Shown here: piece after piece, positions 5,663-15,587 of the stretch
Numbering within the stretch: the first letter of the stretch is position 1
How the letters are laid out: the number at the start of each line of letters is the position of its first letter
Virus record (IMG/VR): IMGVR_UViG_3300004369_000112
Location: 1-27,302 of that record
DNA from: a virus
DNA length: 27,302 bases
Reading direction: 5' to 3' (one strand)
The notes under the pieces: model-generated
What the model saw: only the letters and a program-made list of their open reading frames with translations
Told to the model about the DNA's origin: nothing
The model's database searches: none
Position numbers and translations under genes: made by a program

Positions 5663-6310
5663 TTAATTTACTGATGGTAAATCAGTTGGCCATTGGATTT
5701 TCCATGGATCTACATCCGCATATTGGATAGGTAAAGATTCTAACCATGTTTTATGATTTTGTAATTTCAGTAATTGATCATCTGTATACCAATCACGTTT
5801 ATTATTAATTGCATTAATTACTGCTTCTAATTCAGATGTAACAGCATTATTAAATTTTTCTTTTGTTTGATCGTGGACTTGAAATAAAGGCTCGGTCCAC
5901 GTGTTATTGATATATTTTAATGAATTTATATCATACCAACTTATAATATTCCCCCATGAAAAAGTATAGGTCATGTTTTCATTTATCACCTCTTCATAAT
6001 CGGCAATTTCCTCATGTGTAACTGTCCAAGACTGTAAAATTGCAGCTACTATTGGAGTTTGAGCAGAATCAACTACGATAAATGCCGCATTATCTTGCCT
6101 AGATTTTAATGTATCTAATTCTAAATCGTCAATTGAATTATCTGATGTTTTATCTAAATAATATATTTTTCCGTTAATATTATTAATGCAAACTGCTAGA
6201 TATCTTGGTCCATTATAAGTACAATTTACAGTTGTATTTTGTTCAAAAACATTTTTATATGGTTCATCTGGCATTACTATAGTAAAATTTTTAGTCATAA
6301 TTTTTTCCAT
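5663..6310 (-). CDS. Tail-fibre/tail assembly chaperone-like protein
   Basis: A 215-aa protein. The C-terminal 50 residues have the layout of phage tail assembly chaperone proteins (Pfam Phage_tail_APC type): 'NNKRDWYTDDQLLKLQNHKT' (169-188), then 'WLESLPIQYADVDPWKIQWP' (189-208), matching the family pattern of a DW.., an aromatic-rich helix, '...L..LP', and a terminal 'P...WP..P'. The N-terminal part (about 1-140) is beta-rich and not recognised. In other phages such proteins help fold or attach fibre adhesins and lie directly after the fibre gene, as here after three adhesin-like genes. Two starts are possible: ATG at 6310 (whose A is shared with the upstream TAA) and ATG at 6298, which has a GGA about 8 nt upstream; the latter would remove four residues. 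I keep the first but either could be used. Confidence 0.6.
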   Translation of the reverse strand: MEKIMTKNFTIVMPDEPYKNVFEQNTTVNCTYNGPRYLAVCINNINGKIYYLDKTSDNSIDDLELDTLKSRQDNAAFIVVDSAQTPIVAAILQSWTVTHEEIADYEEVINENMTYTFSWGNIISWYDINSLKYINNTWTEPLFQVHDQTKEKFNNAVTSELEAVINAINNKRDWYTDDQLLKLQNHKTWLESLPIQYADVDPWKIQWPTDLPSVN

Positions 6311-7434
6311 TAAAAAGTATTTAAAGTATTACTAGCGGAGAGAAATGTTATTTTTACAGCACCCATTCCGCCTCTATGTCCACAATCAGCAACACCAGCA
6401 CATCCATATCCTGCAGGAGCGCCTGTTCCTATGGGTACTAAAGAAATGCATCTAATATGCTGATGACAAGCACATATGCTTCTGCCTACATGGCAATTAA
6501 ACGGGTGCAGAGCCGACGGTCTTCGTCTAGCCCAGTTAGTTGCATTCATCACAGCATAGATAGATTGGTCGCCCGGATGAGGCATTCCGCCTGGTCCATC
6601 TGCAACTCTTGCCATTGCATATGTAGCGCCTAGTTGTGCATCAGGATCACTGGAGTGAGTTTGACCACTGTGGAATAATCCATATGGATAAGGAGTCCAC
6701 GGTTCTGTACAACATCTATTAACATTACAAGCACTACCCCATATTTTTGCCCAACTAATTGGTCCAGGCATATTTACATCTCCGCCAAATGCTAGAGCTT
6801 CGTCGCCGTGACTACCAGCTGTGCAGTGTTTGTTACAAATAATTCCACAACCTGTACATTCTATTGCATCGTTATTAATCCAATGTGTATGATAAAAATC
6901 AGCGGCGGTGTAACAACAATACATGTTGGTACCATTAGAACAGACGCGATAACCACTAGCTCCACCTTCTGCACACATACATCCTGAAATCAAATTACTA
7001 TAAGGTGCAGGCACCACGTGCGTATAACAAATTGTTGTTGCACAAGATCTATCCCAAATTACTCCAGGATTATCATTCCATGTTGAATCACCTATCTTAC
7101 CGGTTATGTATGAGATTCCTTGTTGTACCGGTATTGTTTTTTTGGCATAAGCTCCTGCATTACCTGGTAACGAGAAAGCACAATCACATGTATAAGGAGT
7201 GCTACCACCTCCTCCCCAGATTTCTATAATTGCAGTTCCGTTACCTGGCGCACTCCAGCAAAAGCAATCATTTGCTGCTACTACTGCATCGTTAACATGG
7301 GTTGGATCTGGCACATAATAATGGGTTTTTTCATTTACCGGACGTGAATAAAAATATATTTGTCCTTTTTCAATCAATCTATCTGTATCAGCAGATCTAT
7401 CGTGAAGTAATTTGCTTAATTTTATTGCAGCCAT
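6310..7434 (-). CDS. Cys/His-rich, glycine-rich adhesin-like protein, paralogue 3
   Basis: A 374-aa protein with 24 Cys (about 6%). It shares a framework with the two upstream genes: 'RLIEKGQIYFYS' (19-30), 'IIEIWGGGGS' (69-78), 'CDC' (83-85), 'GNAGAYAKKTI' (91-101), 'AEGGASGYRVC' (155-165), 'FGGDVN' (216-221) and a C-terminal 'GGMGAVKITF' (355-364). The 'IEIWGxGG...YAKK' arrangement is typical of glycine-rich domains at phage fibre tips. It has an HTH tripeptide (H182, H184) and a striking 'CACHQHIRC' (321-329), which could bind metal. No signal peptide or membrane segment is present. A GGAG lies about 14 nt before the ATG, within the end of the upstream gene region, a long spacing. It is followed directly by the chaperone-like gene, consistent with an adhesin and its helper. 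The function is inferred from framework and position. Confidence 0.7.
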   Translation of the reverse strand: MAAIKLSKLLHDRSADTDRLIEKGQIYFYSRPVNEKTHYYVPDPTHVNDAVVAANDCFCWSAPGNGTAIIEIWGGGGSTPYTCDCAFSLPGNAGAYAKKTIPVQQGISYITGKIGDSTWNDNPGVIWDRSCATTICYTHVVPAPYSNLISGCMCAEGGASGYRVCSNGTNMYCCYTAADFYHTHWINNDAIECTGCGIICNKHCTAGSHGDEALAFGGDVNMPGPISWAKIWGSACNVNRCCTEPWTPYPYGLFHSGQTHSSDPDAQLGATYAMARVADGPGGMPHPGDQSIYAVMNATNWARRRPSALHPFNCHVGRSICACHQHIRCISLVPIGTGAPAGYGCAGVADCGHRGGMGAVKITFLSASNTLNTF

Positions 7435-7442
7435 GTTTAATA

Positions 7443-8408
7443 TTAACTCCGTAAAAACTTTATTTGTACTTGTCCATCACCGCCACCGAATGCCATATTT
7501 CGACAATCTGGTGTATGCAAAGTAGGGGACCCTGGAAATGCCGGAGGCAACTGATTTAAGTATTTGTGACTATCTGAGCAGGCATAGTGAGCACAGCCAT
7601 AACAAGTTGCCATTGCATATCCTTGTCTGCCCATTAATCGTATCATATTAATATATTCTATATTACCACTATATTGACAACAATAAAAATCGTTAGTGCA
7701 GGAAATTGGTACTACAAGGGTTGTTCCACATGTACTAAATCGCATAGGAGGAGTCCTCATAAAATAAACATATACACATTTTCCTTCAGGTGCGCAACAG
7801 CCTACATACATACAACTTATACCACCACAAATATTAATATCTCCACCAGATGCCCTTGCATAACTAACTGTATCATTAGCACAATAACTCTCGTTAAACT
7901 TATTACAATAGTAACCGCATATTGAACTATGAAATCTTGTTGCACACATTTCATTGGTGATATTTGTAATCATATTGGCTGTAGATGTGGCGCACCATGA
8001 TGAACCATTCTGACCACTTGCAGCACACATAGTTGCATTTAATCTATCCTCTACACAAACTACAGTAGGAAATCCAATAGATCTTCTAGGAACGGCTGAA
8101 TCTTTGTTTGCACAAGCTACACAACCACGAATGCGTTCTCCTTTTTCAACAAACAGTGTTTTCTTTGCATATGATCCAGGATTTGGAGGTACTGATAGCA
8201 TACAACAGCAAGTAGTAGCTGAACTGCCTCCTGCTCCCCATATTTCGATTTCAACATAACCAGATTGAGGAGCTGCCCAACATACACAACAGTATTCTTG
8301 ATTGTCTTTGTCTCTACCGTAGACAAAAATTTCTCCTTTTTCAAGCAAATCCGTTGGACTACCGGCTCCTTGCCATCTACGTTGTAATAAATTTGAAAGT
8401 GTAGCCAT
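7443..8408 (-). CDS. Cys-rich, glycine-rich adhesin-like protein, paralogue 2
   Basis: A 321-aa protein with 28 Cys (about 9%). The framework is shared with its neighbours: 'LLEKGEIFVYG' (21-31), 'EIEIWGAGGSS' (53-63), 'CCC' (67-69), 'PPNPGSYAKKT' (74-84), 'AASGQNGSSWC' (129-139), 'SGGDINICGG' (187-196), 'PPAFPGSP' (288-295) and C-terminal 'FGGGDGQVQIKF' (307-318). Its closest relative by layout is the 347-aa protein upstream: both have CC/CCC clusters in the same place and a 'PP.FPG.P' block near the end. It lacks the HxH tripeptides of the other two. No enzymatic motif is visible. There is a strong Shine-Dalgarno (AAAGGAG) before the ATG at 8408. The Cys density is far above that of every other protein in the window, so these are either highly disulfide-bonded after release or metal-binding. 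Confidence 0.7.
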   Translation of the reverse strand: MATLSNLLQRRWQGAGSPTDLLEKGEIFVYGRDKDNQEYCCVCWAAPQSGYVEIEIWGAGGSSATTCCCMLSVPPNPGSYAKKTLFVEKGERIRGCVACANKDSAVPRRSIGFPTVVCVEDRLNATMCAASGQNGSSWCATSTANMITNITNEMCATRFHSSICGYYCNKFNESYCANDTVSYARASGGDINICGGISCMYVGCCAPEGKCVYVYFMRTPPMRFSTCGTTLVVPISCTNDFYCCQYSGNIEYINMIRLMGRQGYAMATCYGCAHYACSDSHKYLNQLPPAFPGSPTLHTPDCRNMAFGGGDGQVQIKFLRS

Positions 8409-8412
8409 TGAA

Positions 8413-9456
8413 TTATTCTCCTTTAATCCATGTAATTCTAACTCCGCCGTTACCGCCTCTCATTCCCTGTGTCCTGAAATTCTCGTGACAATGTCCTAAA
8501 TTCGGTCCTGGAAATCCTGGAGGAAAGGTATTATAGCAGGTTTGTATAGCGTCATAACAGAAACACAGATGATGTTTAGTATCTTCTTGGCTTCCAAGGT
8601 GGTGTCCTTCAACTCCACCGTGCCAGCGTCCTACAATTTTTTGATGATAATTGTCATAAGCACCTTGTGCTTTGTTGCAGCAACTACATGTATGGGTATG
8701 TCTTATATAGGCCTGTTTTTCTGAATAGTATCCACCAGGAACACTAATACAAGTCATATTACAACAATCTTCGTTATTAGGTAACTGTTGTCCATATGGC
8801 TTTTCTATTGATGGTCTAGCATTTTGATAAATATCGTTTTCACAAATTGTGTATTTTCCACATTGATAAACATGGGCCTGATGCATTTGACAGCAATTGT
8901 TGTAGATCGTGGCTTCACAAATGTCACCATTACCGCTCATATGCATATCTCCGCAATTATAATTTAGGTAATATGACTGATTGTTTATTAAAGCAATTAG
9001 TGAGGCTTCTCCACAATACCATCTACCTCCGTATCCTCCTTCCACACACAAGCATGAGCAACAAGAATCTGGGCAGCTACAACATTTATATTGCAACTTT
9101 AAACACACTGCTTGGCTACACATATTCTGACAGTTTCCTTGATAACAAGCAATACCTAACCTACCACAAATATAAGATCCTAAATAATCGTCACCGTTAT
9201 AGCAAATATATTTTTTTGCATATGCTCCAGGATTAGGAGGCATAGTTGGCCCGCAACAACAATTACACGACGATGATCCGCCTGCACCCCATGCTTCTAG
9301 TATAGCGGTTCCTGGTCCAGGAGGTCTAAAGCAAATCTCTGGTTCATAATTATATTGATTATTTTGATACAGATAAACGGTGCCTTTTTCTAAAAGTGGA
9401 TCAACCCACGATGTAATATTTCTTGCTTTAAGTAAAGCACTTAGATTAAAACTCAT
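8413..9456 (-). CDS. Cys/His-rich, glycine-rich adhesin-like protein, paralogue 1
   Basis: A 347-aa protein with 35 Cys (about 10%), the richest of the three. Framework: 'PLLEKGTVYLY' (20-30), 'ILEAWGAGGSSSC' (52-64), 'CNCCC' (64-68), 'PPNPGAYAKK' (73-82), 'VEGGYGGRWYC' (138-148), 'FPPGFPGP' (311-318), 'RGGNGGVRITW' (333-343). Residues 125-137 read CCSCPDSCCSCLC: 7 Cys in 13 residues, a spacing resembling metallothioneins. Histidines gather as HTH (253-255) next to 'CSCC' (257-260), and as HH pairs at 285-286 and 295-296. T4 fibre gp37 binds iron through HxH motifs, so metal binding at a fibre tip has a precedent. The start has AGGAT about 8 nt upstream. It probably is a fibre-tip or baseplate adhesin; assignment rests on the glycine-rich framework and its place between fibre genes and a chaperone-like gene. 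Confidence 0.7.
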   Translation of the reverse strand: MSFNLSALLKARNITSWVDPLLEKGTVYLYQNNQYNYEPEICFRPPGPGTAILEAWGAGGSSSCNCCCGPTMPPNPGAYAKKYICYNGDDYLGSYICGRLGIACYQGNCQNMCSQAVCLKLQYKCCSCPDSCCSCLCVEGGYGGRWYCGEASLIALINNQSYYLNYNCGDMHMSGNGDICEATIYNNCCQMHQAHVYQCGKYTICENDIYQNARPSIEKPYGQQLPNNEDCCNMTCISVPGGYYSEKQAYIRHTHTCSCCNKAQGAYDNYHQKIVGRWHGGVEGHHLGSQEDTKHHLCFCYDAIQTCYNTFPPGFPGPNLGHCHENFRTQGMRGGNGGVRITWIKGE

Positions 9457-9467
9457 AATTTATCCTA

Positions 9468-9809
9468 TTAGGCACATATTGCCCATTTACTATTACCAAG
9501 ATTATCACTATACCATATAAATGTTACAGTTGCTCCTGGTAAATCTAAAACTACACTATTACCGCCATAGACCTGTATTCCGTTGCTTGTAATAGTAATT
9601 GTAGCACTGGTTGTAGCATAACCTACGTCAATTACCTGTATAATATCACCAGTTTGTATTGTTGAATCACTTGGCAAAGTTATCGTTACATTGCCTACTG
9701 CTGGATCAGTTTTCACCAATATACGTTCATTTACATTTGCAGTATAATTAGTTTCCTTGTATACTGTTATCATGTTTGTACTGTTTGTACTAGATACTGC
9801 TCTCGCCAT
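9468..9809 (-). CDS. Small beta-type virion protein, paralogue of the 124-aa neighbour
   Basis: A 113-aa protein, all-beta by composition. The core 'ETNYTANVNERILVKT' followed by 'VTITLPSDSTIQTGD', 'IIQVIDVG' and a hydrophobic C-terminal strand ('ATVTFIWYSD') ending in 'KWAICA' is the pattern of a short structural domain frequently found in phage fibres and decoration proteins. The upstream 124-aa gene has the same pattern ('SDYTAEVNETILIDS', 'FTINLPYSDTVGDSLQIIDVG', ending 'YWAISG'), so they are tandem paralogues. A Shine-Dalgarno (AGGA) precedes the ATG. There is no catalytic motif. The probable role is as a structural or capping protein of the fibre assembly. Confidence 0.65.
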   Translation of the reverse strand: MARAVSSTNSTNMITVYKETNYTANVNERILVKTDPAVGNVTITLPSDSTIQTGDIIQVIDVGYATTSATITITSNGIQVYGGNSVVLDLPGATVTFIWYSDNLGNSKWAICA

Positions 9810-9823
9810 TTATTTTTCCTTTT

Positions 9824-10198
9824 TTATCCTGAAATTGCCCAGTATAATGCACCTAATCCTCCAAATGCACCTGGTGCTTGATATACAATTAGTGTTGTAA
9901 TACTGCCAGGTATATCAAGAAATATAGTAGAGTAATTCATTCCACTAGTGTCGTTCATAGGGTTGAATTGTGGTTGTGAATTTGGTTGATGTAGTTTTAC
10001 TGGATAATCTTTTAATTTAGCCCCTACGTCTATAATCTGTAAACTATCGCCTACTGTGTCAGAATAGGGTAAGTTTATCGTAAAACTGCCATCGGATGAA
10101 TCAATTAAAATAGTTTCATTAACCTCAGCAGTATAATCACTACGGATCACTGATACAGTATTATCTGATAAAGAAGGTCTATTTGTATATCTTCCCAT
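9824..10198 (-). CDS. Small beta-type virion protein, paralogue of the 113-aa neighbour
   Basis: A 124-aa protein with 'RSDYTAEVNETILIDSSDGS', 'FTINLPYSDTVGDSLQIIDV' and a C-terminal 'LYWAISG'. The order of strands and the key words 'YTAxVNExIL', 'ITLP/INLP', '(I/L)QVIDVG/QIIDVG' and 'WAI' match the downstream 113-aa protein, while the central loop (about residues 58-95, 'AKLKDYPVKLHQPNSQPQF...') is different and longer. The variable loop between conserved strands fits a surface-exposed binding loop. It has an AAGGA about 11 nt before the ATG. Function is not known; virion structural is likely. Confidence 0.65.
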   Translation of the reverse strand: MGRYTNRPSLSDNTVSVIRSDYTAEVNETILIDSSDGSFTINLPYSDTVGDSLQIIDVGAKLKDYPVKLHQPNSQPQFNPMNDTSGMNYSTIFLDIPGSITTLIVYQAPGAFGGLGALYWAISG

Positions 10199-10213: not shown

Positions 10214-10534
10214 TTATACTTCGCTTTCAATACCATAAGCTACTGCACTAATCGGTGTTCCTGTTGTTGATACTACAAGTTTTTCACCAGCAGCTAAAAC
10301 TAACCCAGTTCTTTCTAGTACACTTTTTGGATATACTTCAGTATCATATTCTATCCATTCGTCGTCAGTAGGTGTATCTACATCAGCTATTGCTAATCTT
10401 ACACTAACAACAGAGTTAGATCTATTGCATAAGGATACTGTAGCAACTGTAAATGTAGATGCTGGCACAGTATATAATGTTGTATTTGTTGAGGCAGATG
10501 TTATATTTTGACTGCCTAATTTTCCAGAAGCCAT
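10214..10534 (-). CDS. Small virion structural protein, paralogue of the 109-aa protein at 21315
   Basis: A 106-aa protein with the order: 'LYTVPASTFTVATVSLCNRS' (early strands), 'VSVRLAIADVDTPTDDEWIE' (middle), 'VYPKSVLERTGLVLAAGEKL' then 'VVSTTGTPISAVAYGIE'. The pattern 'AxVxxxxLxNRSxxxVxVxLxI...LPxxSxLxxxGLxLxxGExLxVxS' is a beta-sandwich-like layout common in small phage structural proteins, and it is repeated in the 109-aa protein next to the other fibre group ('TRAVILGINLSNLIDNVVYC', 'ANSTLKALAGGEKLVLEPEN', 'SIDAVLSYAE'). Shine-Dalgarno GGAG lies 6 nt before the ATG. It follows the 1680-aa fibre by 10 bp and is likely co-translated with it. The role is probably as an attachment or decoration partner. 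Confidence 0.65.
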   Translation of the reverse strand: MASGKLGSQNITSASTNTTLYTVPASTFTVATVSLCNRSNSVVSVRLAIADVDTPTDDEWIEYDTEVYPKSVLERTGLVLAAGEKLVVSTTGTPISAVAYGIESEV

Positions 10535-10544
10535 TTTTTCTCCA

Positions 10545-13500
10545 TTATGATTTCAAAAAGTAATTCATTGCAACTGGATATCCTGAAACTGTTTTTGTAA
10601 AATTTATTTTTGTTACTATACGGACATCGTTGTTTAAAACATTACTTATTTCATTACTAGTTATATTTATGTCTCCAGCTGTTATACTGTTAACATTTAA
10701 TTGACTTGCTCCACTTCCTATTAAACTATTTATATAAGTTTTAATTGCTCGCTGGGTAGGTACTATGCTATCACTATTAGCTGTAAAAGTTCCATCTGTT
10801 GAAAATTCTGTAATAGTAGCGCCTGTTCCACCTAATGACAAGTTACCTAAAGTTAGTTCATTTAATCCTGCAAGATTAAATGATTCAACATTTAGACTAG
10901 CTGTTCCTGTTGCTTGCTCTACACTAAATAGTTCACCTACACGGAAATTTCCGTCTTGGTCAGTTGACGTGTAGAAGACCCTTCCTTCTCCAAATTCATT
11001 TGTTTCAACGGTTGGGTCTGGATCAATTAAAGGAGCATTAGGATAATTTGTATTTGTAAAATTACCAGTTCCTACATCTAGGAAATCATGCCCTGTTAGT
11101 CTAACTTGACTATATCTTATTGTAATATCAATTGTTTCACCATGATCAGGGGCATCTGAAATTGCTAGATCTGGGCTCATTTGCAGAGTTGCACTGTATG
11201 CAGGAGCAGATCCGGCTAGCTCACGTAATTGTACTAATTTATAGAATACTCCAGGATTGTTATTAATTTCAATATTTGCTCCTTCTTTTGGAATTTCTGT
11301 TAAATTATCTACTATTAAATAATTTTCATATTGATATTGATCTGCATATCCATCTCCTGTAACAGTTGCTGTTGCTGTACCATAATCTGTACCTCTATTA
11401 CTCCAGGTAGGTTGTGTTAATACTCCATCACCTACTCTAACCTGATACTCACCGTCGTAAGTGTTGTTAGGATCAGTAATAGTCATATTAGGAGGACTCC
11501 CGCTGATATAACCTGTTCCAGGATCCCATATTAAAATTTTTATAATTTTATTATCTGAAACAACTGCCCTAGCTTTTGCTGAGTCTGCATATGTTCCTGC
11601 CGTAGGTAAATCAAACATGAGTCGTGGTTCAATGCTATATCCTGTGGTACTGTCTAGGACAGTTTCAATTGTTGTACCTGGTATAACATGATCCCAACCA
11701 GCCGTATCATCACTGTACTTTTTTACAGTTGCTATTTTATTGCTAGCGTTATATGTATCAATATATGCATATTGTCCAACTCCTTTACCGCTAGTTATCC
11801 AAATAGCCATTCCTATATATGCTGCACTTGAAAAAGAATCGGTATTAGAAATAATAATTTGCGTTTGGTTACCAGATTGGGCTACATTTTGACTATTAAC
11901 ATAACCTTCTCCGCCAAATTGTCCGGTTGTAGTGTTTGTATCTAATATCCTAACCCTAAAAACCCCGCCTGTAGAAACTACATTCACAGCACTTATTGAT
12001 TCGCCAAATCCACCGCCAAAAATATCTATTGTAGTACCACCAGATGTATAATTAACACCGGCATTTTCATAAAACAAAGTTAATATTCCGCTACCGTCGG
12101 TTAATACATCGCCTATGATAGCTTCGGTACTTTGATTATTAACTGTTGCAGTAATTGCCGTTTCGGCAGGATCTGTGCCTTCTGCTACTACTCCATACGT
12201 ACCATAAGAACTGTTACCATTTGTTGCTCGTATCTTACCGCCATTTTCTGCTAGATATCCTATGTGTGCATAATAACTAAACACCGAAACTAATTCAGCT
12301 CTGCCTAAATTTGTAATCCATGCGCCAATACCGTCGCTTATAATTTGAGTAAAATCATTAGCTACAATAGAATCATTACCTCCAGAATGTAAATCACCAT
12401 CTACTTTAAGTCCAACACAAGCTTCGCCAAACGTTGTTACATTCTGCACATAAGGAGATCTTGTAATTATGTGAGTATCTACATCTGCAGGACCATATCC
12501 AGGATCTAAACTGGCATATGCTCCAGCAAGAGGCCTTTTTGTTCCATATGCATTTGCACTGGAAAGACCGTCTCCGCCTTGATCGGTGTCGCCATCGGTT
12601 TTACCATTGAGATTATCAACCGTGCAATTACGCAATCCTGCTCCATTTCGCAGATAGAACATATCTTCAAGTCGAGAACCTTTAATATCATTTGTTATAA
12701 ATCTTGCTGCGGCTAATGATTTATTAGTTCCTGCATAAATCAAATCATATTTTACAGCATCTAACACTTTATCAATATTCCTGCTGTAGTCTGTCTGATT
12801 AACTGTTACAGTAACTGTCATAGTTCCTGTTGCAGTAGTAACTGATAAAGCACCTCCATCTAATTGATCTGCGATTTGTACAGTTGTGGCATCAACTATT
12901 GTTTTCACGTAATAAGTTTGATCTTGTACAATACCTCCAAAAACAGTGCCTGTAAATTTGACAGGCATTCCTGTAACCATCCAACTGGTATCGCCAACAG
13001 TTATGTTTGAGCTTACGTTATCAGTTGCAGTTGCTGTAGTTGTAAATTGATCAGCTATGTAAGCAAATGCTTCTGCTTTAAGGAATTCTCTGTTTGCTTC
13101 TATATTTTCAACTGAATATGTATAATCGGTTGCTGTATATGGAGTATTTGTTCCACTTAGCGTTGGTAAAACACCATTAGCGTTAATTTTAAAATCGATA
13201 TAAAGATTAATTTTATCTATTAAATCTTGTGCTTGTAAGCCTACTGCTTGTGTTCCTGCTGGATGGGTTGTTACTGGATTCAGTGCATTTCCAGTAGTTT
13301 TTGTTATTGTCCCTGGATTTGTAACTATAAGTTCAATAATTGCAGAAAACCTACTTAGTACACTTCGAGTAATAGGATCATTACTTATGTGAGTTTTAGA
13401 TCCCGCTGCATGAATCTTTGTGCTCCTTAATTCGTCACCTACGACAGCAGTATTTTCTGGTATTACAATTGGTAAAATTTCTTGTTGTAATCCTGTTAAA

Positions 13501-15587
13501 ACAAAAATAGTGTTTGACGCAATTTGTTCAGCTACTAAATTATTGCTGGTTTGTAATGTTAAAGTATCTATTATAATGTTTAATAAATTATTAATAATAC
13601 CTTGCGATTCGTCGTCTATTATATAATCAGTGTCAATTATTTGTGTAAAACTACTGTATGCTGTAGAAACTGGAACATTTTGTAGTATAGCTGGGATTGT
13701 ATCTCTTAGGAATACAAGTGATGCAGCTAGTTGTTCATCTTCGTCGGCTATTGCAGCTATAAGATTACCATTATTGTCAAAATAACTAAGTGTAGCTAAT
13801 CTTGTTTTAACATTTCCTCCATGACTTAAATCATACATTAATGCATCAAGTATTTGTCCAATATCTCTACGACACTTAGCAATGTCACTATTAGTAAATC
13901 CATCCCATATACTGCCTGCGGTAGCATTTGCAATCTGGTAGTTTACCCATTCAACTACTTCTTCTTGCAGGAAGCTTCGATTGATTTCTAATAAAAATTT
14001 AGCATCATAGTGTAAAATACCATTCAAAACATTGTATGCACAGTATTCTATCGTAGCATAAGGCGATGTCTCGCTTAGACCAGAAGCTTTTGTATCACTG
14101 CCTTTTTCGCTAGACACATAAAATATATTATTAATCTTGCCAAAATAATCCCATCTTGGTTCTATACCGTTACTAACAAGTACTTGGTTTTCTCTGCCAA
14201 CAGGTAATCTTTCTTGTCCAGCTGATCCGTAAATTAATAAATCGCCTTGTGTTGTTAATACTTCTGTTTCAGTTCCGCCTACTAATAAATTCCAATGATT
14301 TCCAGCATTTGCCTGATCAGGTCTATTTAAAGCGGTGGTTTCATCGGAATCGTGCTCTAATACACAAATATAACTAGAATTTGCATATCTTACTGAGTCG
14401 CCAAGATCATAATGTACACCATCAGTCCATGCATCTTGCCACTCAATACCGCTGTTTAATTTTTCCCAGTAGGTAGTATTAGGTGGTCTAAATCCTTCAT
14501 GCTTTTTAATACAGAGATAACTGTAACCACCAATACGTATAACATCGCCTTCTATGTATTCTCTCTGGGTGCTATCCCCGTCGTAATCTCCAACAAATCT
14601 AAAACCAGTGTTGAACAAATCCCAATCGCTGGTATTGTCAGACGGCTTTAATCCTTCGTTGTTGGTTACAGCAACATATGTATAACCGCCATAGGTTACA
14701 ACATCTCCATGTTGGTAAAGTATCGATGGATCCCAACTGTCATCAAATTCTAAACCTTCAACAAATTGATCCCACTTTGATTCATCATCAACAAGTCTTG
14801 CCTGACTGGTATGATATACGGTACAAATCCATAATCCTCCGCCCCATTTAACGATATCATTAATTTTATATCGGAAATTAGATTGCCAGGTATTTTTATA
14901 TTCTACGCCTTTATGATAATAATCCCATTTGGCTTGATCTGCTTCAAGTCCAAGTGTAATGTCTGCTGCAGAGGTATGCCCTGTATTACAAAGATATAAC
15001 TGTCCGCCATATTTGACTATATCATTACGTCTATATCTATAGGCAGTTGTCCAGTCTCCTAACCACTCAAGTCCTTCGGAAAAAATTTGCCATTTGGCTT
15101 GATCTGCTTCAAGTCCAAGTGTAATGTCTGCTGCAGAGGTGTGTTCTTCAATACAGGTATAAACTATTCCGTTATATTTTGCAAGATCGTTAATTTTATA
15201 GCGGAAATTAGGTTGCCAATCGTTTTTCCAATCTAATCCTTCTATAAACAAATCCCATTTAGCTTGATCCGCTTCTAATCCTAAGGTTATATTTGCTGCT
15301 GAAGTATGCGCTGTATTAGCAACATAAAGATATCCACCATATTTGACTATATCATTTACTTTATAGTAGGTATTTGTTGTCCAAACGTCTTTCCATTCTT
15401 GTCCGTCGGATATTTTGTTCCAATGTTGTGGTAGATCAACATAAAAATCGCTTGTACTAGTATGTCCAACTACACAAACATATGTATTTCCACCATTCCT
15501 AATAATATCATCTTTATAATAAACTGTATTTATAATCCAGTCGTTTTTCCAAACAAATCTAATTCTACCTAATTTATACTCAGACAT
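10545..15587 (-). CDS. Giant fibre protein with carbohydrate-binding-like repeats and beta-helix (1680 aa)
   Basis: Architecture: residues 1-435 hold about eight tandem repeats of the form W...W....Y..xD(I/V)V.(Y/W)GG..Y.C...H(T/x)S...W, resembling chitin/cellulose-binding CBM5/12-like modules. At 487-526 a pectin-lyase-like beta-helix begins ('IFYVSSEKGSDTKASGLSET') and resumes at 696-730 ('LPIVIPENTAVVGDELRSTK') and from 973 ('DMFYLRNGAGLRNCTV', then 'ITRSPYVQNVTTFGEACVGL'). Two segments break it: 527-695, with a helical 'CRRDIGQILDALMYDLSHGG' (572-591), and 731-972, with a second helical 'NIDKVLDAVKYDLIYAG'. Neither is in the 1761-aa paralogue. The C-terminal 1532-1680 has 'STDQDGNFRVGEL' and 'PTQRAIKTYI'. 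There is no peptidase motif. Shine-Dalgarno CGGAG, and an ATAAATA late promoter 20 nt before the ATG. It is very probably a tail fibre binding surface glycans; the exact part of the tail is not known. Confidence 0.85.
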   Translation of the reverse strand: MSEYKLGRIRFVWKNDWIINTVYYKDDIIRNGGNTYVCVVGHTSTSDFYVDLPQHWNKISDGQEWKDVWTTNTYYKVNDIVKYGGYLYVANTAHTSAANITLGLEADQAKWDLFIEGLDWKNDWQPNFRYKINDLAKYNGIVYTCIEEHTSAADITLGLEADQAKWQIFSEGLEWLGDWTTAYRYRRNDIVKYGGQLYLCNTGHTSAADITLGLEADQAKWDYYHKGVEYKNTWQSNFRYKINDIVKWGGGLWICTVYHTSQARLVDDESKWDQFVEGLEFDDSWDPSILYQHGDVVTYGGYTYVAVTNNEGLKPSDNTSDWDLFNTGFRFVGDYDGDSTQREYIEGDVIRIGGYSYLCIKKHEGFRPPNTTYWEKLNSGIEWQDAWTDGVHYDLGDSVRYANSSYICVLEHDSDETTALNRPDQANAGNHWNLLVGGTETEVLTTQGDLLIYGSAGQERLPVGRENQVLVSNGIEPRWDYFGKINNIFYVSSEKGSDTKASGLSETSPYATIEYCAYNVLNGILHYDAKFLLEINRSFLQEEVVEWVNYQIANATAGSIWDGFTNSDIAKCRRDIGQILDALMYDLSHGGNVKTRLATLSYFDNNGNLIAAIADEDEQLAASLVFLRDTIPAILQNVPVSTAYSSFTQIIDTDYIIDDESQGIINNLLNIIIDTLTLQTSNNLVAEQIASNTIFVLTGLQQEILPIVIPENTAVVGDELRSTKIHAAGSKTHISNDPITRSVLSRFSAIIELIVTNPGTITKTTGNALNPVTTHPAGTQAVGLQAQDLIDKINLYIDFKINANGVLPTLSGTNTPYTATDYTYSVENIEANREFLKAEAFAYIADQFTTTATATDNVSSNITVGDTSWMVTGMPVKFTGTVFGGIVQDQTYYVKTIVDATTVQIADQLDGGALSVTTATGTMTVTVTVNQTDYSRNIDKVLDAVKYDLIYAGTNKSLAAARFITNDIKGSRLEDMFYLRNGAGLRNCTVDNLNGKTDGDTDQGGDGLSSANAYGTKRPLAGAYASLDPGYGPADVDTHIITRSPYVQNVTTFGEACVGLKVDGDLHSGGNDSIVANDFTQIISDGIGAWITNLGRAELVSVFSYYAHIGYLAENGGKIRATNGNSSYGTYGVVAEGTDPAETAITATVNNQSTEAIIGDVLTDGSGILTLFYENAGVNYTSGGTTIDIFGGGFGESISAVNVVSTGGVFRVRILDTNTTTGQFGGEGYVNSQNVAQSGNQTQIIISNTDSFSSAAYIGMAIWITSGKGVGQYAYIDTYNASNKIATVKKYSDDTAGWDHVIPGTTIETVLDSTTGYSIEPRLMFDLPTAGTYADSAKARAVVSDNKIIKILIWDPGTGYISGSPPNMTITDPNNTYDGEYQVRVGDGVLTQPTWSNRGTDYGTATATVTGDGYADQYQYENYLIVDNLTEIPKEGANIEINNNPGVFYKLVQLRELAGSAPAYSATLQMSPDLAISDAPDHGETIDITIRYSQVRLTGHDFLDVGTGNFTNTNYPNAPLIDPDPTVETNEFGEGRVFYTSTDQDGNFRVGELFSVEQATGTASLNVESFNLAGLNELTLGNLSLGGTGATITEFSTDGTFTANSDSIVPTQRAIKTYINSLIGSGASQLNVNSITAGDINITSNEISNVLNNDVRIVTKINFTKTVSGYPVAMNYFLKS
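14925..14975 (-). repeat. 51-bp exact direct repeat, copy A
   Basis: Identical over 51 bp to 15090-15140, 165 bp (55 codons) away, inside the W...W repeat region of the 1680-aa fibre gene. It encodes the conserved 'TSAADITLGLEADQAKW' block. A third unit one period further on (starting about 15255) codes for almost the same residues but differs at many synonymous positions. Confidence 0.95.
15090..15140 (-). repeat. 51-bp exact direct repeat, copy B
   Basis: Second copy of the 51-bp match at 14925-14975; the bases just outside differ on both sides. The 165-bp spacing equals one full protein repeat, so loss or gain of a unit by recombination between copies would stay in frame. Confidence 0.95.

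Follow-up and report, generated by a model that had tools for sequence, protein, structure and literature searches.

Three adjacent genes in the window (the whole stretch of viral DNA that was analysed, 27,302 nucleotides) encode proteins in which a predicted fibre-tip adhesin framework is combined with an extreme enrichment in cysteine. The trait is not peculiar to the window; it is widespread in marine cyanophage-like viruses. The triplet can be regarded as a Cys-hyper-rich variant of a known adhesin type, with the Cys framework as the added trait. The explanation which we favour, though by no means firmly, is that the proteins are fibre-tip adhesins of the glycine-rich type of Pam3 gp24, made with a dedicated chaperone, and that their Cys framework would be oxidised to disulfides after release.

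The Cys-rich triplet and its relatives

The Cys counts of the three adjacent ORFs (Table 1), as obtained from the minus strand translations, agree exactly with those of the initial annotation. Its remark that other proteins of the window contain few Cys was likewise borne out: values for all 17 of the remaining proteins were 0–2.1%, and CC, CxC and CxxC were absent from every one of them. In an alignment of the three paralogues, pairwise identities were 30–31%; invariant columns were found in the WGxGGS, CxC, Gly-x-Tyr-Ala-Lys-Lys and C-terminal GGxGxVxI regions, in agreement with the common framework that had been proposed. An artefact of coding was considered and rejected, since hundreds of contigs preserve the frames at full length. 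Neither Rfam nor a tRNA scan gave a match in the window.

Table 1. Fibre-related genes of the window, with coordinates, strand and sequence evidence
Feature	Coordinates	Strand	Properties
Helper, probable tail-fibre assembly chaperone	5663-6310	-	215 aa; PHROG_9740, E 6.7e-6
Copy 3, Cys-rich fibre-tip adhesin (predicted)	6310-7434	-	374 aa, 24 Cys (6.4%); PHROG_4205, E 1.3e-12
Copy 2, Cys-rich fibre-tip adhesin (predicted)	7443-8408	-	321 aa, 28 Cys (8.7%); PHROG_4205, E 2.2e-6
Copy 1, Cys-rich fibre-tip adhesin (predicted)	8413-9456	-	347 aa, 35 Cys (10.1%); PHROG_4205, E 4.3e-6
Small fibre-associated protein	9468-9809	-	113 aa; PHROG_9648 and PHROG_972 tail families, E about 1e-5
Small fibre-associated protein	9824-10198	-	124 aa; PHROG_9648 tail protein, E 6.9e-6
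Small fibre-associated protein	10214-10534	-	106 aa; PHROG_11338 tail fibre, E 2.8e-9
Large fibre protein, seven CBM5/12-like repeats	10545-15587	-	Pfam CBM_5_12, E 3.2e-39

No other members diverge as far as those of the window. Neither tblastn against annotated phages nor a single-sequence scan of viral contigs gave a match with any of the three, whereas a profile built from them led to 29 viral contigs, nearly all with 2–4 tandem copies of 24–40 Cys each. A typical family member, used as the tblastn query, reached Synechococcus phage S-CAM1, unlike the window proteins. In this phage three consecutive "hypothetical proteins" (SXBG_00226 to SXBG_00224) contain 36, 31 and 25 Cys and are flanked, as is the window triplet, by fibre genes and a Nol-like carbamoyltransferase. 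The annotated start of SXBG_00225 (L033:7943-8779) seems to be late, as the upstream frame gives about 312 residues with the usual N-terminus of the family. Cys-rich genes were found at the equivalent locus also in S-CAM3, S-SSM7, Sf-FS3, P-SSM2 and single-cell marine viruses, the cultured phages having two or three of them. Profiles of further types matched at least 206, at least 249 and at least 59 contigs, sets which may overlap.

Altogether 510 distinct full-length relatives in four sequence groups were collected from 245 loci, with S-CAM1, S-CAM3, S-SSM7, Sf-FS3 and P-SSM2 as the cultured representatives. Their Cys content was 6.05–12.3% throughout; the profiles used for gathering members include Cys columns, so close Cys-poor relatives may be missed, though the 245 loci showed none. 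For 973 other ORFs at the same loci, the median was 1.1% Cys and the 95th percentile 2.6%; the enrichment is thus far beyond what chance would give. A fibre protein of the window matched 248 records, 247 of which are named as cyanophages and one just as "Phage", and the window therefore belongs to a cyanomyovirus relative. A scan of bacterial genomes showed at least two MAG contigs which encode Cys-rich proteins (L254 and L255, from Flavobacteriales and Actinomycetota); these are probably phage contigs that were binned into MAGs.

Fold, helper gene and variants of the locus

The AlphaFold model of copy 2 (pLDDT 76, pTM 0.78, from an alignment of 44 rows) had as its top Foldseek match in the PDB the fibre of cyanophage Pam3 (7ypx; E 2.2e-5, probability 1.00, TM 0.40/0.50), followed by Bxb1 tail-tip proteins and the glycine-rich domains of ALK/LTK. 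In BFVD, the Cys-rich proteins of S-CAM3 and P-SSM2 were matched with E 2.6e-14 and 1.6e-8, as were many glycine-rich phage proteins. A profile search against PDB sequences gave nothing useful. No sequence match to the Pam3 fibre was obtained. Pfam searches with the three window proteins yielded no match up to E 1, Gly_rich_2 (PF21722) included; relatives in S-CAM1, S-CAM3, S-SSM7 and Sf-FS3 passed the Gly_rich_2 cut-off. PHROG_4205, whose entry states no function, was matched by all three window proteins and by the S-CAM1 copies (E about 1e-94 to 1e-99). The fold match and the Gly_rich_2 relatives thus speak for the fibre-tip adhesin framework which had been suggested from the sequence. Glycine-rich proteins from other places in the genomes of these phages contain few Cys: 2 in 485 aa for P-SSM2, 1 in 723 aa for S-CAM1 and 3 in 537 aa for S-CAM3 (that of P-SSM2 alone passes the Gly_rich_2 cut-off). 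Hence, the richness in Cys belongs to the tip set, and neither to the fold or domain nor to the phage. With all 510 relatives above 6% Cys, the designation as a distinct class appears justified.

The start of the helper gene overlaps the stop codon of copy 3 by one base. Over the loci, three Cys-rich genes followed by the helper (CCCh) was the order at 162, and a helper between Cys-rich genes (ChC) at 54; three Cys-rich copies were present at 176 of 245 loci, and the helper adjoins Cys-rich genes in most. In some loci of the window group (L007, L009, L014, L018, L026) two consecutive helpers follow the triplet. Phage_tail_APC (PF16778) matched 8 of 51 helper homologues, with a best E of 7.6e-12; those of S-SSM7 and Sf-FS3 exceeded its cut-off with 38.4 and 42.6 bits (cut-off 26.6 bits). 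The window helper itself had no match to this Pfam family. Its AlphaFold model (pLDDT 95) consists of a beta-rich part of N-terminal strands and a C-terminal helical hairpin; this two-part build resembles the description of Pam3 gp25, and Foldseek against the PDB gave no match under E 0.4. Domain homology in the relatives, together with gene position, suggests that the helper is probably a chaperone, as had been supposed for this neighbour.

Copies at the same position were each other's best match in 83% of cases in the S-CAM group and 81% in the S-SSM7 group (33% expected), and in 70% in the P-SSM2 group with two copies (50% expected); in the window group the effect was weak (46% vs 33% by chance). 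The set of copies is old and has been kept, which fits a heteromer as well as three distinct tips; the data do not distinguish between the two.

Upstream of the tip genes, the large protein with CBM5/12-like repeats is likely the fibre shaft, and the adjacent 106-aa protein aligns with copies from S-CAM3 and P-SSM2. On the other side, between positions 739 and 5597, lie genes for a likely NUDIX-type protein, a small cupin-like protein, a Nol-like carbamoyltransferase and a PHROG_8954 member. The first two names are a reading of the sequence, and relatives of the cupin-like gene are labelled "cysteine dioxygenase"; the last two genes are common to the window, S-CAM1, S-SSM7 and P-SSM2. In S-SSM7 (L035:8311-8970) and Sf-FS3 (L036:8305-8937) a further gene follows triplet and helper, which is annotated as "minor coat protein" in the former and as 2OG-Fe(II)/prolyl 4-hydroxylase in the latter; its product could modify the tip proteins.

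Other types of Cys-rich proteins occur at the same locus. AG-345-O18 (L040:5024-7300) and a viral contig (L253:5001-7274) encode a fibre protein of 757–758 aa with 73–75 Cys, which looks as if a Cys-rich stretch of about 600 aa had been inserted between the two ends of the 106-aa fibre protein. The two large proteins are 74% identical overall and share 68 of 73 Cys, and both sources encode at this locus also a protein of 290 aa with 31 Cys. A further type was found in AG-345-P14 and in contigs L227/L252. None of these proteins was matched by the four family profiles. At L252:3232-5597 (the same contig as L227) one glycine-rich copy has given way to a Cys-rich protein of unrelated sequence, which lies across the helper gene; we regard this as a modular swap of tips. 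The presence of Cys-rich proteins with unrelated sequences at one locus suggests that Cys is selected for at the tip as such; dissimilar sequences may still share a fold. One could go further and regard extreme Cys enrichment as a selected strategy of fibre tips in marine cyanophage-like viruses, which would have arisen at this locus in at least two unrelated folds and would act by chemistry at the cell surface or in seawater, beyond fold stability. A redox-locked or metal-loaded heteromeric tip would then be expected, which might react with thiols of the host upon contact; we consider this extension to be rather unlikely.

Conservation of cysteine and its possible use

Retention of residues was scored between homologues of 40–70% identity in each sequence group. 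Cys was the best-kept residue in three groups and tied with Gly in the fourth, with values of 0.81 (window group), 0.80 (S-CAM), 0.91 (S-SSM7) and 0.71 (P-SSM2); those of His were 0.27, 0.22, 0.43 and 0.21, respectively. A lack of conservation of the Cys columns in homologues had been named beforehand as evidence against the proposed class; it was looked for and not found. In the S-SSM7 group the column entropy was 0.15 for Cys vs about 1.36 at neighbouring positions. In 27 family columns 50% or more of the members have Cys; each window protein occupies 17–18 of these columns. The claim of equivalent places for Cys pairs and triplets held to this extent, but the CCC triplet is CDC in copy 3.

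The initial annotation had also called the proteins His-rich and had considered Cys/His metal sites. His is not a family trait: copies 1, 2 and 3 contain 16, 4 and 13 residues, few other amino acids are conserved as poorly, and only two of its columns reach 75%. A Cys/His site is disfavoured by this poor retention (0.21–0.43). Binding of iron, zinc or copper by the same adhesins could still make use of Cys-only or cluster sites, which would stabilise the tip or present metal to the host, in the sense of the "Ferrojan Horse" idea for marine phages. In favour of such sites are the frequencies of CC (4.0 per protein, 2.8 expected) and CxC (4.4 vs 2.8), both above expectation, and odd Cys counts and unpaired change would pose no obstacle; metal-binding phage fibres are also discussed in the literature. 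However, CxxC, the usual spacing for zinc and Fe-S, was rarer than expected (1.75 vs 2.78 per protein). With some 30 Cys in roughly 320 aa, the proteins have too many for a few metal sites, yet at a lower density than would be expected of a metallothionein. Metal binding thus seems improbable to us.

Disulfides are favoured by the extreme conservation of Cys, the poor conservation of His, the presumed exposure to oxygenated water after lysis, and the precedent of phage Milano (see below). Pairing was sought from the joint loss of Cys, and no significant pair was obtained, independent pairs being too few. The candidate columns 315/395 (C155 and C205 of copy 2) had a raw phi of 0.86 and were rejected as not significant on the tree, with 3 joint changes where 1.0 would be expected (p 0.08, uncorrected for the 171 pairs). 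Variable Cys columns showed no paired change along the trees; Cys was gained and lost singly, and one column of the S-SSM7 group changed 27 times without a partner. Odd Cys counts were present in 27 of 54 proteins of the window group and in 81 of 165, 99 of 195 and 43 of 96 of the other three groups. Since odd counts are as frequent as even ones and changes are unpaired, not every Cys is in a fixed intrachain pair. On the basis of these alignments, the conserved Cys core may be bonded, and many of the variable Cys must be free, bonded between chains or otherwise used.

Independent gain and loss and the odd counts would also be in accord with unbonded Cys serving as small hydrophobic side chains, which pack in or beside a glycine-rich lattice and have no redox or metal role; the Cys-rich members contain about 16% Gly, compared to 27.6% in the Cys-poor Gly_rich_2 protein of P-SSM2. 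Ala, Ser or Val should then be frequent substitutes, whereas Arg, Thr and Tyr led the replacements observed; the overall retention of Cys equals or exceeds that of Gly and Trp, and the Cys-rich fibre proteins of unrelated sequence at the same locus lack the glycine framework. Packing of this kind is therefore an unlikely explanation.

The distribution of Cys over columns differs between groups. Columns in which fewer than half of the members have Cys account for 45% of the Cys in the S-CAM group and for 46% in the P-SSM2 group, and they lie beside variable segments. This could be understood if a fixed core and shifting Cys formed alternative crosslinks in hypervariable binding loops and so diversified receptor specificity, as in Cys-rich antibody loops or conotoxins. 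Such a role is very doubtful, since in the window group 24 columns of at least 80% Cys contain 73% of all Cys, and in the S-SSM7 group 86% of Cys are in columns of this kind.

Disulfide formation by the Cys framework, probably after release, is the use that we prefer. The three proteins would be receptor-binding tips of the tail fibre of a T4-like cyanophage relative; location in the virion and binding of receptors are deduced from fold and gene context. Each tip would follow the Pam3 gp24 fibre in its architecture, with a beta domain and a glycine-rich domain in addition to a short N-terminal helix for docking; folding would be aided by the chaperone, whose gene immediately follows those of the tips. 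When lysis frees the particles from the reducing cytosol, the conserved Cys would oxidise to disulfides, within and probably between subunits, and the resulting framework would fix the variable loops around these residues. The three copies may form a heterotrimer or serve as three alternative tips.

Comparison with known systems and significance

To our knowledge, the receptors of these viruses are mostly unknown. The nearest counterpart, Pam3 gp24 (PDB 7ypx), has in common with the triplet the fold as matched by copy 2, the glycine-rich domain, the N-terminal helix, a neighbouring chaperone gene (a probable one in the window) and a cyanophage origin; it is encoded by one fibre gene, in contrast to three paralogues in the window, and the helper model was not matched to gp25. 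Gly_rich_2 phage tail proteins, with which we presumably may group the Bxb1 tail tip and S16 gp38-like adhesins, differ in that the window proteins are below detection by this family and have the Cys framework in addition. Pam3 gp24 is a trimeric fibre made with chaperone gp25, and its glycine-rich domain, which was proposed to bind the host, has a conserved stem and a variable distal tip proposed for receptor binding (PMC9608196).

Structural proteins of phages are normally poor in Cys, and about 2% in Agrobacterium phage Milano was called remarkable. Milano resembles the present case as a tailed phage with Cys-enriched structural proteins; they contain 2.1–2.4% Cys, extensive disulfides were seen by cryo-EM, and DTT weakens the virions (PMC10491603, PMC10811340). 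In Milano, Cys are distributed over capsid, neck, sheath and baseplate, whereas here 6–12% are confined to the predicted tips; also, disulfides were observed in Milano, whereas those of the triplet are predicted. The family was absent from the full-text literature on cysteine-rich cyanophage or phage fibre proteins that was searched (few subscription journals, no bioRxiv), and the word cysteine is absent from the main comparative genome paper of these cyanophages.

Hundreds of ocean phage contigs encode predicted tips with roughly three to five times the Cys of Milano, strongly conserved, which raises the question whether disulfide bonds or metal lock phage adhesins in place. In the case of disulfides, oxidation of the adhesins must take place once the particles have been released, and reduction would provide a simple test of infectivity. 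If they bind metal, the proteins would be strong candidates for the idea of metal-carrying fibres. Under either reading, several "hypothetical proteins" of cultured cyanophages would obtain an annotation, as fibre-tip adhesins with their chaperone.
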